A stretch of DNA of 64,000 nt from Fuerstiella sp. (lineage in GTDB: Bacteria; Planctomycetota; Planctomycetia; Planctomycetales; Planctomycetaceae). Within the stretch, counting starts at the first letter, position 1, and every line of letters begins with the position of its first letter. The position numbers were made by a program, and so were the translations under genes. This document shows, piece by piece, positions 54,871 through 60,628 of the stretch. The stretch covers positions 1 to 64,000 of the forward strand of contig JAKVAZ010000006.1 of NCBI GenBank assembly GCA_022447225.1, written 5' to 3'. The notes beneath the pieces are model-generated. The model saw only the letters and a list, made by a program, of their open reading frames with translations. It did not search any database and had not been told where the DNA came from.

Positions 54871-56145
54871 TCACTTCTCACGAAGCGAGATCACCCGATC
54901 CACCGCTTCTTGCCACGTTGAGATCAGTTCGTCCAGTTGCTCATTGCGAATGGTCCGAAGAACGGCACTGAATTCCGGGCCATCTTTCATTCCCAGCAGT
55001 TTCAGATCAGCTCCTGAGATCAGCGGTGGCGGGTCCAGGCTTTCCGATGTGGTCTGACTCAGATACCTGTTTAGAAAATCTGCATCAGATTGCGGCCGCA
55101 AACCAGCCCGAACCTGGGCCTCAATCAGATCCAGCAACAGCGGGTGCCGATGGTCAGCCAGAATTGGCTTAAGTCGGTGCAGCGGCAGGTCTGTCGGGCT
55201 TTGACAGCGATCGCAGGCGTCACACAGCCAGCAGATCGTAGACACTTCCTCGTTAGAAAATCTGAGTTGACGCAACACTGACGCAATACGTTTTATCCTC
55301 TCCCGATGCCGGTCGAAGTCCGTATCAAGTCGTTCCTGCAGCAGCATTGCCAAAGTCGGTTCGAATACCGGCAGACGCAGAAAGGGCACAAGCCGAAGAA
55401 CGGTATTTTCGGCTTCATCTGAAACTTCAGGAAAAACAACGGAAAACAAATTCAGATTCCGCAGAAGTTCCAGCGCCAAATGTCTGGAAGAATGCGCCAG
55501 CATTTGCCTCAGTTCCTGACTGATTCGTTCCTCGCTGACCTGAGTAAGGTCTGCGGCTCGCCGCCTAACGGCTTCCGCTGTGCGATCGTCCAGTGCAAAT
55601 TCAAAACGAGCGGCAAAGCGGACCGCACGCAGCATTCTGAGTTTGTCTTCTTCAAATCGTTCTACCGGATTACCAATGGCACGGATGATTGATCGTTCAA
55701 GGTCCTGCCTCCCGCCAACATAGTCGACCATTTTTTCAGCAAGCGGATCATAAAACATACCGTTGATGGTAAAATCACGTCGCTGTGCGTCTTTTTCGGC
55801 AGAACAAAATTCAACGTGGTTCGGACGACGTCCGTCAGTGTATTTTCCGTCAGAACGAAATGTCGCAACTTCAACCTGACCGTCCGATTTACACTTTCCC
55901 AAAACAACTATCACACCGAAACTGGCACCGACACCGACTGTCTTTTCCCGGCCAAACAGCTGAATCACCTCCTCCGGTCGGGCTGAAGTGGCAACGTCGT
56001 AATCTTTGGGAACAAACCCGCGTAAGGCATCGCGCACACACCCACCGGCCCACACAGCTTCAAATCCGGCAGCATCCAGTTTGCGCACAACGCGAAACGC
56101 GAATGTTTTCAGCTCAGAATCAGGAAAATTTAGACTGTCTACCAT
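54871..56145 (-). CDS. CCA tRNA nucleotidyltransferase / poly(A) polymerase family
   Basis: A 424-residue class II nucleotidyltransferase. The head domain has GGCVRDALRGFVPKDYDVATSA (about residues 34-55, with the DxD metal site), then RRDFTINGMFYDPL and the ERFEEDKLRMLRAVRFAARF neck motif. The C-terminal body is helical. It adds or repairs the CCA end of tRNAs, essential here since the tRNA-Arg in this window does not encode CCA. ATG 56145 is the first Met. It lies 152 bases after the RNase HII-like gene on the same strand, likely part of a longer transcript with it. Confidence 0.9.
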   Translation of the reverse strand: MVDSLNFPDSELKTFAFRVVRKLDAAGFEAVWAGGCVRDALRGFVPKDYDVATSARPEEVIQLFGREKTVGVGASFGVIVVLGKCKSDGQVEVATFRSDGKYTDGRRPNHVEFCSAEKDAQRRDFTINGMFYDPLAEKMVDYVGGRQDLERSIIRAIGNPVERFEEDKLRMLRAVRFAARFEFALDDRTAEAVRRRAADLTQVSEERISQELRQMLAHSSRHLALELLRNLNLFSVVFPEVSDEAENTVLRLVPFLRLPVFEPTLAMLLQERLDTDFDRHRERIKRIASVLRQLRFSNEEVSTICWLCDACDRCQSPTDLPLHRLKPILADHRHPLLLDLIEAQVRAGLRPQSDADFLNRYLSQTTSESLDPPPLISGADLKLLGMKDGPEFSAVLRTIRNEQLDELISTWQEAVDRVISLREK

Positions 56146-56297: not shown

Positions 56298-57248
56298 CTA
56301 CCGGAAACGCCAGACCGTATTCCTGGGTATGTTCTGTCGATCCAGCTCCTGTTCAATTTCTTTAACAAATCGCGCCGCGTCCACCGGATACCCCTGCGTG
56401 GGCTTCAACTCAGGAATCATCTGCCTCCAAAACGCGTTGAATTCGAGCATTGCAACTTCACGCACGTATTTTGATATCATAGAGGCTACCGCAACCGGAA
56501 GGTGTTCTTCGGCTTTCGTTTGAAAACGAAACTCTAAGTTATTCAGGCGATACCGCGACAGCTCTCGTCCTTCTTCCAGGCCAAACACGAACTCATCATC
56601 AAACGCTGCCGAAATCAGCTCGGCGTAGCGATTTCTTCCCCCGTGTTTGTCACAGATAATCTGAGCGGTGTTTGGTCGTTCCTCGCGGACAATTTCTGAC
56701 ACCAGTTGCAGCGTCTCCACTGACAGAACACGGCCTTTGGATCCCGCCGCTGCGACAAGATCGTTGAATTCATCAGGGAAAATGATGCGAGATCGCACGG
56801 TTACCATTTCCGCATCTGCCTCACGGAGCGTCTGACGCAGTTGCAGTGACGACCGTTCGATCAACCCGGCATCTGTCTGCACCGGTACACCCTCACGAAC
56901 CGAAGGCCGACATCTTTGACGATCCAAAGCACGCTGAAATTCAGCACCGGCTACCGCGGTCCCCAGCGAATCAAAATCATGCGGCATCTGATTCAACAGA
57001 TTCAGAAACGCCAATACCGATTTCTCCAGCGGAACCATGGAACCACCAGACGAGTATATTTTTTTCGAATCAGCAACCTGCAGCTGTTCCGGCTGCTCCG
57101 GCGCAGCGGTACCCACGGCGCGACTCAGCAGCTGCCAGCACAGAGGACTGGTTGTCCCCTGCGGAAATCGCCAGGCCGTCGCTGTAATCAGTAATGGCCC
57201 CAGGTTCGGACCGTAGCCGGCTTCGTCGGTTCCGATGAAGAATGTCAT
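56298..57248 (-). CDS. RNase HII-like protein (divergent)
   Basis: A 316-residue protein related to RNase HII. The first active-site pair is at GTDEAGYGPNLGPL (Asp8, Glu9), followed by VADSKKIYS, ICDKHGGRNRY (third acid), and KAEEHLPVAVASMISKYVRE, where RNase HII has KGD...AASILAKVxRD, so a Glu appears in place of the fourth Asp. The C-terminal TQGYPVDAARF matches KGYPTAxH. It is about 100 residues longer than normal RNase HII, with extra segments between residues 90 and 200. Activity on RNA-DNA hybrids is plausible but not certain; it may be a separate planctomycete branch. It starts 10 bases after the stop of the upstream gene. Confidence 0.75.
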   Translation of the reverse strand: MTFFIGTDEAGYGPNLGPLLITATAWRFPQGTTSPLCWQLLSRAVGTAAPEQPEQLQVADSKKIYSSGGSMVPLEKSVLAFLNLLNQMPHDFDSLGTAVAGAEFQRALDRQRCRPSVREGVPVQTDAGLIERSSLQLRQTLREADAEMVTVRSRIIFPDEFNDLVAAAGSKGRVLSVETLQLVSEIVREERPNTAQIICDKHGGRNRYAELISAAFDDEFVFGLEEGRELSRYRLNNLEFRFQTKAEEHLPVAVASMISKYVREVAMLEFNAFWRQMIPELKPTQGYPVDAARFVKEIEQELDRQNIPRNTVWRFR

Positions 57249-57258
57249 ATATTGATGA

Positions 57259-60200
57259 TCATGACTTCGGACGTCTGTTTCGTATAAAACGGATCAGACT
57301 GTATCGAGTCTTCAGCTGCTTCGCCTCGTCAGAAACTTCGACGCGCTGATCGGCATAGCCGGGGACAACACGACGAACGCTTACGGCCCATCCGGCACCG
57401 GCTTCCAGTGGATGAGACTGCAGTTCCTGAACCGGAATGGCAACCTCGAAGCGCCAGCCGGTCCGGTCACGCTGAGTTGCCACGTACCACCGGGGATTCC
57501 AGTTATCAAACTGCCAGCAGCGATCGGACGTCCGGCCCGCACTGTCAACCACGAAATGCCAGGCCGTCGAATAGTCACGGTCGATGTCCAGTCGCAGTTC
57601 AATATGGTCAGCTGTCATATCAGCTTCATCATGCGTTCGATCGAATTTCTCTGTCTCAGGCTGGATGTCGTCCACCGTCGGCAAATGACCGGCGAAATAC
57701 AGGAACTTAGGATCCCAGCTCAACATCACCAGGCTGTTCGTCGTTCCGTCCGCCGATCCTCCGCCGGTTAGCTGAATTTCCGGAGCCTGCTGCCAGCACT
57801 GATCGCTGAGTACCCCGTCCAGTCGGGGACGCCGATGAGTCTCAGGCAGATTAAACGCCTCAATCACAGGTTCCACAGCAGAGAATCCGGCCTGCATTTC
57901 ATTAACCGCCAGCAGGCGCCGCCAGTCCGGAGCACCGGACGCGGCGGCCAGTGCAGTCCGTTCTTTCCCAGGCTGATGCAATCGACGGTAACGGGCAGCA
58001 ACGATGAGTTTCTGCTGAGCCGATAAAGCCGAATCCGGAGCGAGCTGATTCAGATGCCCCCACGAAATAACGGCCTGCTGATTCCAGTGTTCATCGAGAG
58101 CCCTGTCTTCCCGACCATTGCTCCGGTAAAAACGATCAAGCGACGTTCCGGCGGCGGGAAGAACCCATGGCTTAACAGATAACGGCCGCTGATCCGCGGG
58201 AATATGTGAAGCAGCATGGCGTTGTCCCCTGTCATGGAACGGTCGCCCGCTTTTTCGCAGGGTCAGAATCTCTGCAGAGGAATACAGCAGGTGCAGATCT
58301 TCTGCAGCGTAAGCAGCCTGCGGTGAGTCGGGAAATCGACGTATGAATTCCCTGCGGACTGCAATCCTGCCTTCCAGATTCTCACGCTGACAAAACAGTT
58401 CCAGTGCGTGCTGCAGCTGAGCAGATGACAGTGCAGCCGGCATGTTACTGCCAATGGTCCGCATATGTGCGATGAGCTCTCCCCCTGCGGGTCGACGCTC
58501 TATTTGCGTGGTCAGAGCCAGCTTTTGAGTATGATGTTTTTTGACAGTTTCTTCCAGATCGCCAATGTCGTGATCCGGCTGTAACAGCCGGCGTCTTCCA
58601 CCGCTGCCAGGTGTCACCGGGATGTTTCGAAACATCGCATCGGGTGTGGCGGCCGCGGATCTGCGGTGGACTGCATAAGCCACATCGTCGTTCCCCGAAC
58701 GGACATTGGGATTTGTAGCCGAGTACCAGTTGTGAGCCACCAGACCGGCTGTCGTCCTCAGCGTCGGCAACACGAAGTCGGCACGATATTCCAGCGGAGT
58801 ACTGTTCTTATGAGTGCGAATGATCACGCGCTGCACGGTCCAGGGCAGCAGTCCTGCCTTGAGCAGCGGGGAGGATCGAGGGTCTGATCCTGCCGCAATT
58901 TCACCGGCTGATTTGATCACTGACCGCCAAATCGCTGCGACACCGTCATTTTCTCCGGACGATTCGATACATATCACGTTTGGACGCCATGTTCGAATTT
59001 CAGCTGCCAGACGTAGCGGAAGTAGTTTCCGCAACCGACCGTCCGACAACATATCCCATGTCTGAAGCAGCGACGACTGCGACACAGCCTGCTGATGTTT
59101 CGTTCGGGCGAACCGCCAGTCTGCTGTCATCGTGTTTACACCCAAACCGGCGATTTGCGACCGCCACCGCTCCGGATTTTGTTCATCAACTAATCGCCGC
59201 GAAGGTTGCAGCACGCTCACCCGGTAACCGTCTTCCCCGGCAACTTTGGCGAGCATCAACGGGGCCACGTCCTGAGGATCCGTCACGATGTACATCAACG
59301 CCGATCGCCGGTCGCCATTACGCACACTTTTCCAACTGCGTCCAAAATCATCTGATTGCAGGATCATTCCCCACGCCCCGACGGCCAAGAGCGAATCCGC
59401 TCCCAAACGAGTCAGTCGATTGATCGAACCACCTCTGGCACAGGGAATCCTGCTCCACGTGGTTCCTGCGTCATCACTGACTAAAACACTTGAAGCCGGT
59501 GTCCCGGCAACACAGACACGTTCACCGTCATGCACCACACTGCGAAGACAATAGATGTCCCGAATCTCGTCAGGGAATCGTGCAGGAATTTTCCAGCTTA
59601 CCCCGCGGTTCACGCTCCGACGAACGTAGCCACCATCCCCCACAATCCATGCTCGACCATCGTCGGAAAAGGACACCGCATGGACAGTCTGCAAAGAATT
59701 CCCGGGGTCTCCAAGAATTGACAGTTTGTTGCTGTTAACCACGCCATACGCCCGGCCTCCCCCAACCAGGATCCCCTCGTCCGGACTCACAAATGCGGCA
59801 CTGCCCCAGTCAGCCGAAGCATTGTCTGATTCAATTTCCTTCCAGGACCGGCCGGCATCTGTTGTAATCAGAACGGATCCTCCCTCGCCGTGACCGGGCG
59901 TGGTGACCACGATGCCCTTGTCCAGCCCAAAGAACCGAACCATCCGCAGACCAGGCAACTGAACGTCTGGTGATACGTTTTTCCATGTCTGCCCGCCGTC
60001 GTCCGTCGTCAATAAAACGCCACGATCTAACTTAGAATGCAGATCAGCACGAATGCCGGCGATAAAACCGATACGATTCGTGAGAAAACAGACACTGTTC
60101 AGGCTGCAGTCAAAGGGCAGAACGCCCGAAACCCACGTCTTGCCGGCATCACCAGAATGAACAACTACCCCACGTTCCCCAACTGCCCAACATTGCCGGC

Positions 60201-60381
60201 CAACCACAGCCACATCGTACAGGGACGCATCATCAATAATGGCTGCGGAACGGTACACCGGCGTACTTAAGAACGCCGGTGGAATCGGATCATGAGCAAT
60301 CAACCGATATTCGGCGGCTGCCGTCGGTGCCAGCAGCGTCCAGGCGAACCATGTCTGAAAAAATGCTATTTGCATCCTCAT
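57259..60381 (-). CDS. exported Asp-box/YCF48-like protein with CBM9-like C-terminus
   Basis: About 1040 residues. The ATG at 60381 gives a signal peptide (about residues 1-23, ending AAA); the frame extends to 60516. Residues 50-400 form a beta-propeller with six Asp-box motifs (GDAGKTW, DDGGQTW, TDAGRSW, NRGVSW, DDAGTTW, DDFGRSW), as in YCF48/sialidase-type folds. A long middle of low similarity (400-820) follows, perhaps PIG-L-like or helical. The last 200 residues (RRPRLDGVLSDQCWQQAPEIQL, LSWDPKFLYFAGHL, DHIELRLDIDRDYSTAWHF) resemble a family 9 carbohydrate-binding module. It probably binds cell-surface glycan in the periplasm. The RNase HII-like gene follows after 10 bases. Confidence 0.72.
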   Translation of the reverse strand: MRMQIAFFQTWFAWTLLAPTAAAEYRLIAHDPIPPAFLSTPVYRSAAIIDDASLYDVAVVGRQCWAVGERGVVVHSGDAGKTWVSGVLPFDCSLNSVCFLTNRIGFIAGIRADLHSKLDRGVLLTTDDGGQTWKNVSPDVQLPGLRMVRFFGLDKGIVVTTPGHGEGGSVLITTDAGRSWKEIESDNASADWGSAAFVSPDEGILVGGGRAYGVVNSNKLSILGDPGNSLQTVHAVSFSDDGRAWIVGDGGYVRRSVNRGVSWKIPARFPDEIRDIYCLRSVVHDGERVCVAGTPASSVLVSDDAGTTWSRIPCARGGSINRLTRLGADSLLAVGAWGMILQSDDFGRSWKSVRNGDRRSALMYIVTDPQDVAPLMLAKVAGEDGYRVSVLQPSRRLVDEQNPERWRSQIAGLGVNTMTADWRFARTKHQQAVSQSSLLQTWDMLSDGRLRKLLPLRLAAEIRTWRPNVICIESSGENDGVAAIWRSVIKSAGEIAAGSDPRSSPLLKAGLLPWTVQRVIIRTHKNSTPLEYRADFVLPTLRTTAGLVAHNWYSATNPNVRSGNDDVAYAVHRRSAAATPDAMFRNIPVTPGSGGRRRLLQPDHDIGDLEETVKKHHTQKLALTTQIERRPAGGELIAHMRTIGSNMPAALSSAQLQHALELFCQRENLEGRIAVRREFIRRFPDSPQAAYAAEDLHLLYSSAEILTLRKSGRPFHDRGQRHAASHIPADQRPLSVKPWVLPAAGTSLDRFYRSNGREDRALDEHWNQQAVISWGHLNQLAPDSALSAQQKLIVAARYRRLHQPGKERTALAAASGAPDWRRLLAVNEMQAGFSAVEPVIEAFNLPETHRRPRLDGVLSDQCWQQAPEIQLTGGGSADGTTNSLVMLSWDPKFLYFAGHLPTVDDIQPETEKFDRTHDEADMTADHIELRLDIDRDYSTAWHFVVDSAGRTSDRCWQFDNWNPRWYVATQRDRTGWRFEVAIPVQELQSHPLEAGAGWAVSVRRVVPGYADQRVEVSDEAKQLKTRYSLIRFIRNRRPKS

Positions 60382-60628
60382 ACGCCGGTCATACCAAATC
60401 CCTTCAGTTACAGGGAGCCGAACTGGATTGCAGGCAGGAACTGCCGATTTGTCTGCCGTGGAAAAACTTGGGAACCGAACTGGTGACTTTTTGGGGGCAG
60501 GCCGCACATCTCTCATATTGACCGGAAATCCGGGGTCTGAGAGATTTCCGCTTATCTCAATCTTTCCTTCCCACGATGATATGCTGTCCTGACGATCGGG
60601 TCAGAAACCGGCAAAGGAGTGTCCTACC

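Follow-up and report, generated by a model that had tools for sequence, protein, structure and literature searches.

A divergent, enlarged type-2 RNase H as a candidate for the RNase HII role in the Planctomycetota

The gene and its surroundings

The window (the whole stretch of DNA analysed, 64,000 nucleotides from Fuerstiella sp.) carries on the minus strand, at 57248..56298, a single long open reading frame (ORF) of 316 aa (P0001; the stop codon is included in the coordinates). The longest ORF listed on the plus strand over 56298-57248 was one of 113 aa. The features of the gene are as follows; residue numbers are those of the window protein, and row counts refer to the phylum-wide family alignment described below.

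56298..57248, minus strand: coding sequence of the enlarged type-2 RNase H (ATG at 57248, stop codon at 56298-56300; homologues found)
57207..57227, minus strand: DEAGYGP, residues 8-14; putative catalytic acids 1 and 2 (D8, E9) and the GxG loop, GYG here versus GRG in most RNases HII
57060..57071, minus strand: DSKK, residues 60-63; DSK is present in 72/72 family rows
56871..57056, minus strand: the main insert (residues 65-126, approximately), modelled with three short helices and unmatched in the aligned E. coli RNase HII
56763..56765, minus strand: N162 in P-x-x-F-N; HIII-like (P-x-x-Y-N), the position being acidic in RNase HII
56625..56651, minus strand: D200-KHGGRNR-Y208; putative third catalytic acid D200 and the signature D-x-x-G-x-R-x-x-Y
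56520..56585, minus strand: strands 222-226, 230-235 and 238-243 of the model secondary structure, between the third and fourth acids
56508..56516, minus strand: KAE, residues 245-247; putative fourth catalytic acid E247
56457..56486, minus strand: ASMISKYVRE, residues 255-264; it belongs to the N-terminal half of a long helix (250-277)
56385..56399, minus strand: TQGYP, residues 284-288; Y287 is aligned with the junction-sensing tyrosine of RNase HII

An earlier note on this DNA had described the landmarks DEAGYGP, DSKK, CDKHGG and ASMISKYVRE as following the RNase HII order, with KAE replacing KGD and about 100 extra residues. All four landmarks were found in the 316-aa ORF (CDKHGG at residues 199-204), KAE is present at residues 245-247, and the excess was determined as 118 residues, E. 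coli RNase HII (taken from NC_000913) being 198 aa long. Most of the excess separates DSK from the third acid; less of it precedes DSK or separates the third acid from the fourth. Between the fourth acid and the tyrosine, the spacing hardly differs (40 in the window protein versus 39 in the E. coli enzyme). Within the modelled secondary structure, the main insert is placed between DSK and the helix preceding the next core strand. By inference, the strands at 222-243 would consist of an added hairpin (about 222-235) and a core strand. The insert and the hairpin were called additions by comparing the model with the alignment of RNase HII, RNase HIII and family sequences.

The closest named relative among the matches listed was a Fuerstiella metagenome-assembled genome, with 75% identity. 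Comparison of the window gene with this closest homologue gave a dN of 0.147 and a dS of 0.889 (dN/dS about 0.17), which indicates purifying selection on the window gene. A chance ORF or an artefact was rejected in view of the homology, the selection and the predicted fold.

Upstream of the gene is a YCF48/BNR-repeat gene (57259-60516, minus strand), and the RNase H ORF starts 10 bases past its stop codon; downstream is a poly(A)-polymerase-family gene (54871-56145). In the neighborhoods compared (76 of the 80 loci and the window; the other four loci were left out, as the gene had been missed in ORF picking), YCF48-like homologues occurred in 18/77, and in 16 of these, counting the window, the homologue was the immediate upstream neighbor and shared the strand of the RNase H gene. 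Since other neighbors occurred in fewer, a conserved operon was rejected. Searches of plasmids, phages and PHROGs yielded no relatives, and among viral contigs 14 stretches fitted a pattern, none of which was confirmed; a mobile or viral origin was therefore also rejected.

The genome of the window is 5.43 Mb in size and 97% complete. PF01351 at E<=10 matched in it two pieces of this ORF only, and TIGR00716 (E<=1e-3) and TIGR00729 (E<=10) matched only this ORF; as a control of the PF01351 search, 14/14 control genomes were positive. Thus, the second canonical rnhB or rnhC for which the earlier note had proposed to search was not found in the 97% complete genome, and an ordinary rnhB elsewhere in it was rejected as an explanation on the basis of these profile searches. 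RNase HI is present in the genome, on another contig.

Sequence classification, predicted fold and active site

The only Pfam match of the window protein at E<=10 was PF01351 (RNase_HII; 32.1 bits, gathering threshold 25.8; E 1.3e-7). PF00075 (RNase HI) did not match it, the RNase HI of the genome being a separate gene. The scores against the NCBIfam models were far under the cut-offs (TIGR00716, rnhC, 29.4 bits versus 161.2; TIGR00729, 22.4 versus 123.3; NF000595, 21.1 versus 167), and the best single model was thus rnhC. PF01351 at E<=1 matched 80/80 members of the second family alignment (A2, see below). A profile (A1) built from 34 relatives matched 24 distinct PDB sequences at E<=10, all of which were type-2 RNases H, in the order RNase H3 4py5 (5e-11) and then eukaryotic RNASEH2A and archaeal RNase HII. 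Family rows scored 161-445 bits with A1, which was itself built from part of those rows, and the reported RNase HII/HIII rows scored at most 47. In profile-profile comparisons, the family matched RNase HIII with E 3.1e-11 over 113 columns and RNase HII with 2.8e-6 over 46 columns; the E value between RNase HIII and RNase HII was 2.1e-16.

Tree reconstruction was performed as a quick analysis with no bootstrap (152 core columns, 87 rows; the root was set for drawing only). The rows comprised 56 of the 71 family rows, 22 of the 32 RNase HIII rows (mostly from Planctomycetota) and nine RNase HII rows; four of the 10 bacterial RNase HII references (L216, L218, L221 and L222, which are in alignment A5), not recognized by the motif pattern, and the odd rows L209-L213 (see the last section) were left out. 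RNase HII, RNase HIII and the planctomycete family formed three clades with SH-aLRT values of 86, 97 and 98, respectively, and the window protein was placed outside both the RNase HII clade and the RNase HIII clade. From this quick tree, the family appears to stand apart within the RNase HII/HIII superfamily, as a branch of its own.

The structure was predicted with AlphaFold2 (80 sequences; pLDDT 96.4, pTM 0.94). On searching with Foldseek and VIA, type-2 RNases H alone were on top; the 25 listed entries with a Z above 10 (10.7-18.2) were all of type 2, and the best VIA match other than a type-2 RNase H had a Z of 6.2. The VIA matches included RNase H3 4py5 (Z 18.2, 2.4 A over 189 residues), archaeal RNase HII 1eke (Z 18.0, 3.0 A over 203 residues), Bst RNase HIII 3asm (Z 16.9), subunit A of eukaryotic RNase H2 (3kio, Z 16.6; 3puf, Z 16.4), E. 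coli RNase HII (Z 13.5) and T. maritima RNase HII (Z 13.1). The ranges of the model matched by VIA extended from residue 1-3 to residue 316, so that the C-terminal helical part was covered. The N-terminal TBP-like domain (about 80 residues) is absent, the first core strand being residues 2-10, and D8 having just 7 residues ahead of it. According to this confident model, the window protein is predicted to have the type-2 RNase H fold.

Residue conservation was counted in 72 phylum-wide family rows and in the second alignment, A2, of 80 rows (79 of the 80 loci were used; L085 was omitted). Two loci, L182 and L198, were dropped before the counts, as the motif search gave no frame, and L208, which has a masked stretch, was treated as a gap in the 72-row counts and excluded from the 71-row counts. 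D8 and E9 were retained in 72/72 rows (80/80 in A2), and D200 in 70/72 (one Gly, one gap; 80/80 in A2). The Gly belongs to L178 (G068), which has IGKQGG and is the lone such row of the 72; it is either a sequencing error or an inactive copy. The fourth acid was E in 50 rows, D in 21 and a gap in the remaining row (E in 79 and D in one in A2), so that the four acids D-E-D-(D/E) occurred in order in 80/80 rows of A2. On the tree, of which 42 of the 84 inner branches are weak, the D/E exchange at this site required at least 12 changes. Y287 was retained in 71/72 rows, the other being the gap (80/80 in A2), and K260, R263 and E264 also in 71/72, with a gap in the remaining row. Both glycines of the GxG loop were retained, and its middle residue was Y in 57, L in 13 and F in two of the 72 rows.

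According to the accessible parts of PMC9719913, PMC3025331 and PMC4132731, the acids are DEDD in RNase HII and DEDE in RNase HIII; in RNase HIII, the glycines are the sole strictly retained part of the GxG loop, and the tyrosine underlying junction recognition is lacking. The accessible part of PMC3025331 further describes this tyrosine as the key to junction recognition in RNase HII, and the DSK motif as lying at the scissile phosphate in the structures of both RNase HII and RNase HIII. The earlier note had singled out the replacement of an active-site Asp by Glu. That this marks the protein as an oddity was not borne out; RNase HIII has Glu at this site, and within the family both Glu and Asp occur there in alternation. 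An inactivating or unique change was rejected on the same grounds. Under the profile alignment, PDB 4py5 has 'DK' at D200 and KAED at KAE247.

The column of N162 was N in 71/71 family rows and in 19/19 RNase HIII rows, versus D or E in the nine RNase HII rows; the alignment of RNase HII, RNase HIII and the family included 19 of the later 32 RNase HIII rows. Of the 19 RNase HIII rows, 17 bear a letter at the junction site, and in none of these is it Tyr; in 31/32 RNase HIII rows the site was located by pattern, and GY followed it in none. The junction Tyr was present in 10/10 bacterial RNase HII references. The family thus mixes the HIII-like Glu and Asn (N162) with the HII-type junction tyrosine. 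The signature D-x-x-G-x-R-x-x-Y, found in 66/71 family rows and 0/41 RNase HII/HIII rows, and K171 are further marks of the family.

The Arg of GRG is absent in two of the 10 RNase HII references, the plasmid-borne rnhB genes of Bradyrhizobium barranii and Alkaliphilus sp. (L216 and L222; GMS or GVS for GRG, annotated as ribonuclease HII), and the HII-type gene of one planctomycete genome (G214, see below) has GLG; therefore, the G-[YLF]-G loop is not exclusive to the family. In T. maritima, the R22A mutation is described, in the accessible part of the source, as leaving the activity on most substrates largely unchanged and slightly lowering that on a single ribonucleotide; the loss of the Arg in GYG is thus compatible with activity.

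In comparison with RNase HII (rnhB, PF01351; E. coli, T. maritima and archaeal enzymes), the window protein has in common the predicted fold, DEAG, DSK, acids 1-3, the GY tyrosine, the lack of an extra N-terminal domain and, as for most bacterial RNases HII, an RNase HI in the same genome, and it differs in the fourth acid (Glu or Asp in the family versus Asp), in the loop (G-[YLF]-G in the family versus GRG in most RNases HII), in the 118 additional residues, in scores far under the NCBIfam RNase HII cut-offs and in its separate clade in the quick tree. With RNase HIII (rnhC, TIGR00716; 4py5, 2d0a and 3vn5), it shares the Glu as fourth acid and the P-x-x-[FY]-N segment, and RNase HIII was the top match both by sequence profile and by fold; however, the window protein is without the TBP-like N-domain, has the junction Tyr that RNase HIII lacks, reaches only 29.4 bits of the 161.2 required, falls in a separate clade, and belongs to a family that coexists with true RNase HIII in 65 genomes (see below). 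Subunit A of eukaryotic RNase H2 (3kio, 3puf) has the fold, DEAG and DSK in common, with GYP aligned to GYP, but has Asp as the fourth acid and differs in the inserts.

Distribution across the Planctomycetota

The phylum sample consisted of 294 genomes chosen at >=90% completeness. A homologue of the family was found in 287/294: 288 were matched by A1 at E<=1e-3, and one (G062) was subtracted because its match was weak and corresponded to the RNase HII of that genome. Most genomes had one A1 match and some had two, which we take to be pieces of one gene. In the sample of the genus, family and class, 55/59 genomes had a homologue. In a wider genome scan, the best 80 of 539 confirmed matches had nearly all planctomycete titles; we take contig titles like Kuenenia and Anammoximicrobium to denote planctomycetes. 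One homologue, 41% identical to the window protein, was on a contig titled Candidatus Nealsonbacteria bin.20 (L113), which is probably a misbinned planctomycete contig. Five of the genomes lacking the family (G072, G160, G252, G324 and G328; 90-94% complete) had neither the enlarged gene nor another type-2 RNase H that could be found, and the absence in these five probably reflects gaps.

HII-type genes were found in 3/294 genomes (G062, G084 and G214). Those of G062 and G084, both among the seven genomes without the family, were over the TIGR00729 cut-off; the contamination of G084 is 8%. We presume that they are of the 'archaeal type'; TIGR00729 was their best match, and their branch with the A. 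fulgidus row was weakly supported. The third, of the bacterial type, is in G214 together with RNase HIII and the enlarged gene, and its best NCBIfam model gave 156.1 bits versus a cut-off of 167. These numbers are small (three HII-bearing genomes), and in one of the three, G214, a one-for-one replacement does not hold. Its HII-type gene (G214:C21, L231:226-849; 207 aa) matches phrog_19422 (4.7e-30) and is possibly part of a prophage. For other Planctomycetota, a reading of the full-length PF01351 genes as RNase HII was considered and rejected, since an alignment of eight of them and TIGR00716 showed rnhC; all places matched by PF01351 at E<=1e-20 were also matched by rnhC, except for the three of G062, G084 and G214:C21. 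In the class of the window, PF01351 at E<=1e-8 matched in 1/297 genomes (G372); this match, cut by the contig end, is RNase HIII by sequence, and G372 also carries the family gene.

RNase HIII (rnhC, E<=1e-30) was found in 65/294 genomes, in 56 of them over the cut-off, and the family gene was present in 65/65. RNase HI was found in 228/294 genomes, namely in 17/65 HIII-positive and 211/229 HIII-negative genomes (Fisher 8e-26, over related genomes and uncorrected for shared descent); both enzymes were present in 17 genomes, RNase HIII only in 48, RNase HI only in 211 and neither in 18. RNase HI and RNase HIII thus tend to exclude each other in the phylum, and the enlarged gene stays. This pattern resembles the exclusion of RNase HI and RNase HIII reported by Kochiwa et al. 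(2007; PMC1950709, accessible part). The enlarged gene behaves as a constant third partner, in the place held by RNase HII elsewhere.

In Table 2 of the same survey, as far as the source was accessible, the HII-bearing groups make up 220/235 bacterial species, from which RNase HII appears near-universal. Its sole planctomycete is in Group E, and the definitions of the other groups, in the part accessible, leave E as RNase HI only. A later paper (PMC11929135, 2025) states, in its accessible part, that Planctomycetota 'largely lack' rnhB, and the accessible part of PMC2837039 lists rnhB among persistent genes. The accessible main text of the paper on the essential genes of Planctopirus limnophila (PMC10632474) does not mention RNase H, nor does PMC12283558. 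In the literature searched on RNase HII and Planctomycetes or Planctomycetota, no account of the family was found; subscription journals were thinly covered, and an earlier description is possible. The fold and the chemistry are known already, and Pfam tags the window protein as RNase HII-like; the branch, the mixture of features and the presence across nearly the whole phylum sample seem to be new. These data suggest that the RNase HII of the Planctomycetota is disguised and not missing, in the form of a divergent gene in 287/294 genomes whose window copy scores far below the naming thresholds.

Putative role and related genes

We consider, with a probability of roughly three in four, that the gene encodes a type-2 RNase H which acts as the RNase HII of the Planctomycetota and belongs to a branch separate from RNase HII and RNase HIII. 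The homology, the predicted fold, the conservation of the acids and the tyrosine, the distribution in the phylum and the lack of any other RNase HII/HIII found in the window genome were computed directly. The suggestion of the earlier note that this might be 'the main RNase HII of this lineage' is upheld by the type-2 fold, by the acids and HII-type tyrosine retained phylum-wide and by the finding of no other RNase HII/HIII. Its other suggestion, another nucleic-acid substrate, is neither favored nor contradicted by these data.

As to catalysis, metal use, substrate and the role in repair, we infer the following scheme. D8, E9, D200 and E247 would perform two-metal cleavage, and an embedded ribonucleotide would be sensed by the backbone of GxG and by Tyr287. 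The DNA would be nicked at embedded ribonucleotides, whereby ribonucleotide excision repair would begin, and DNA polymerase I and ligase would complete it. Long RNA-DNA hybrids would be taken by the RNase HI of the same genome. Since the family is closer to RNase HIII by profile and the nearest solved relative is RNase H3, an HIII-like preference for hybrids is possible.

A bolder proposal, which we hold only tentatively, is that the family is a third class of type-2 RNase H that dates from the split of RNase HII and RNase HIII or branches near it, that combines the HII tyrosine, the HIII glutamate and a new DxxGxRxxY loop at the third acid, and that could act on single ribonucleotides as well as on long hybrids, or on a substrate that neither class handles.

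The enzyme might instead be functionally an RNase HIII. Its Glu site, together with a middle segment resembling that of RNase HIII, would then give it a preference for long RNA-DNA hybrids, such as R-loops and primers, and it would be weak on single ribonucleotides. The first rank of RNase H3 4py5 among PDB matches by profile and by fold, rnhC as the best NCBIfam model (29.4 bits) and the N162 common with RNase HIII point this way. However, the HII-type tyrosine is present in 71/71 rows with letters and absent from the RNase HIII rows, the N-terminal substrate-binding domain is lacking (first core strand 2-10), and the quick tree places the family outside RNase HIII; moreover, as the enlarged gene is retained in 65/65 genomes with true RNase HIII, the two seem not to be interchangeable. 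We therefore regard this as unlikely.

It is still less likely that the gene encodes an active nuclease with another main substrate, the putative cause of the change being the inserts and the DKHGGRNRY loop. The 118 residues beyond E. coli RNase HII, the loop signature found in 0/41 RNase HII/HIII rows and the persistence of the gene alongside RNase HIII in 65 genomes are in keeping with such a change, but the ribonucleotide-sensing residues (both GxG glycines, DSK and Tyr) are retained, and no further type-2 RNase H was found in the window genome. A degenerate, non-catalytic descendant retained for another reason, to which the Gly of L178 at the D200 column and the variation of the fourth acid between D and E might point, is very improbable in view of D8 and E9 in 72/72 rows, D200 in 80/80 (A2), an acid at 247 in all rows with letters and the dN/dS of about 0.17 against the 75%-identical homologue.

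If the gene does fill the RNase HII role, an annotation gap would be filled by a new branch of enzyme and not by a new kind of system, and ribonucleotide repair in the Planctomycetota becomes testable. The natural mixture of RNase HII and RNase HIII features also lets one ask which residues set the specificity for the junction versus the hybrid.

Two further kinds of type-2 RNase H relatives were observed in the phylum. In three genomes of one family (L209, L210 and L211; G107:C9, G091:C36 and G132:C14), there is an odd relative (open frames of 490-530 aa, approximately) that has DETGTGE, KADD as the motif of the fourth acid, GTGN for the GY of RNase HII and a long extension at the C terminus; A1 gives strong matches in these genomes too, so that the odd relative stands beside the enlarged family. 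Short HIII-like genes with SDESGKGER (L212 and L213; G201:C28 and G304:C84) end soon after AAASIVAR, with the C-terminal part missing, and are possibly degenerate.
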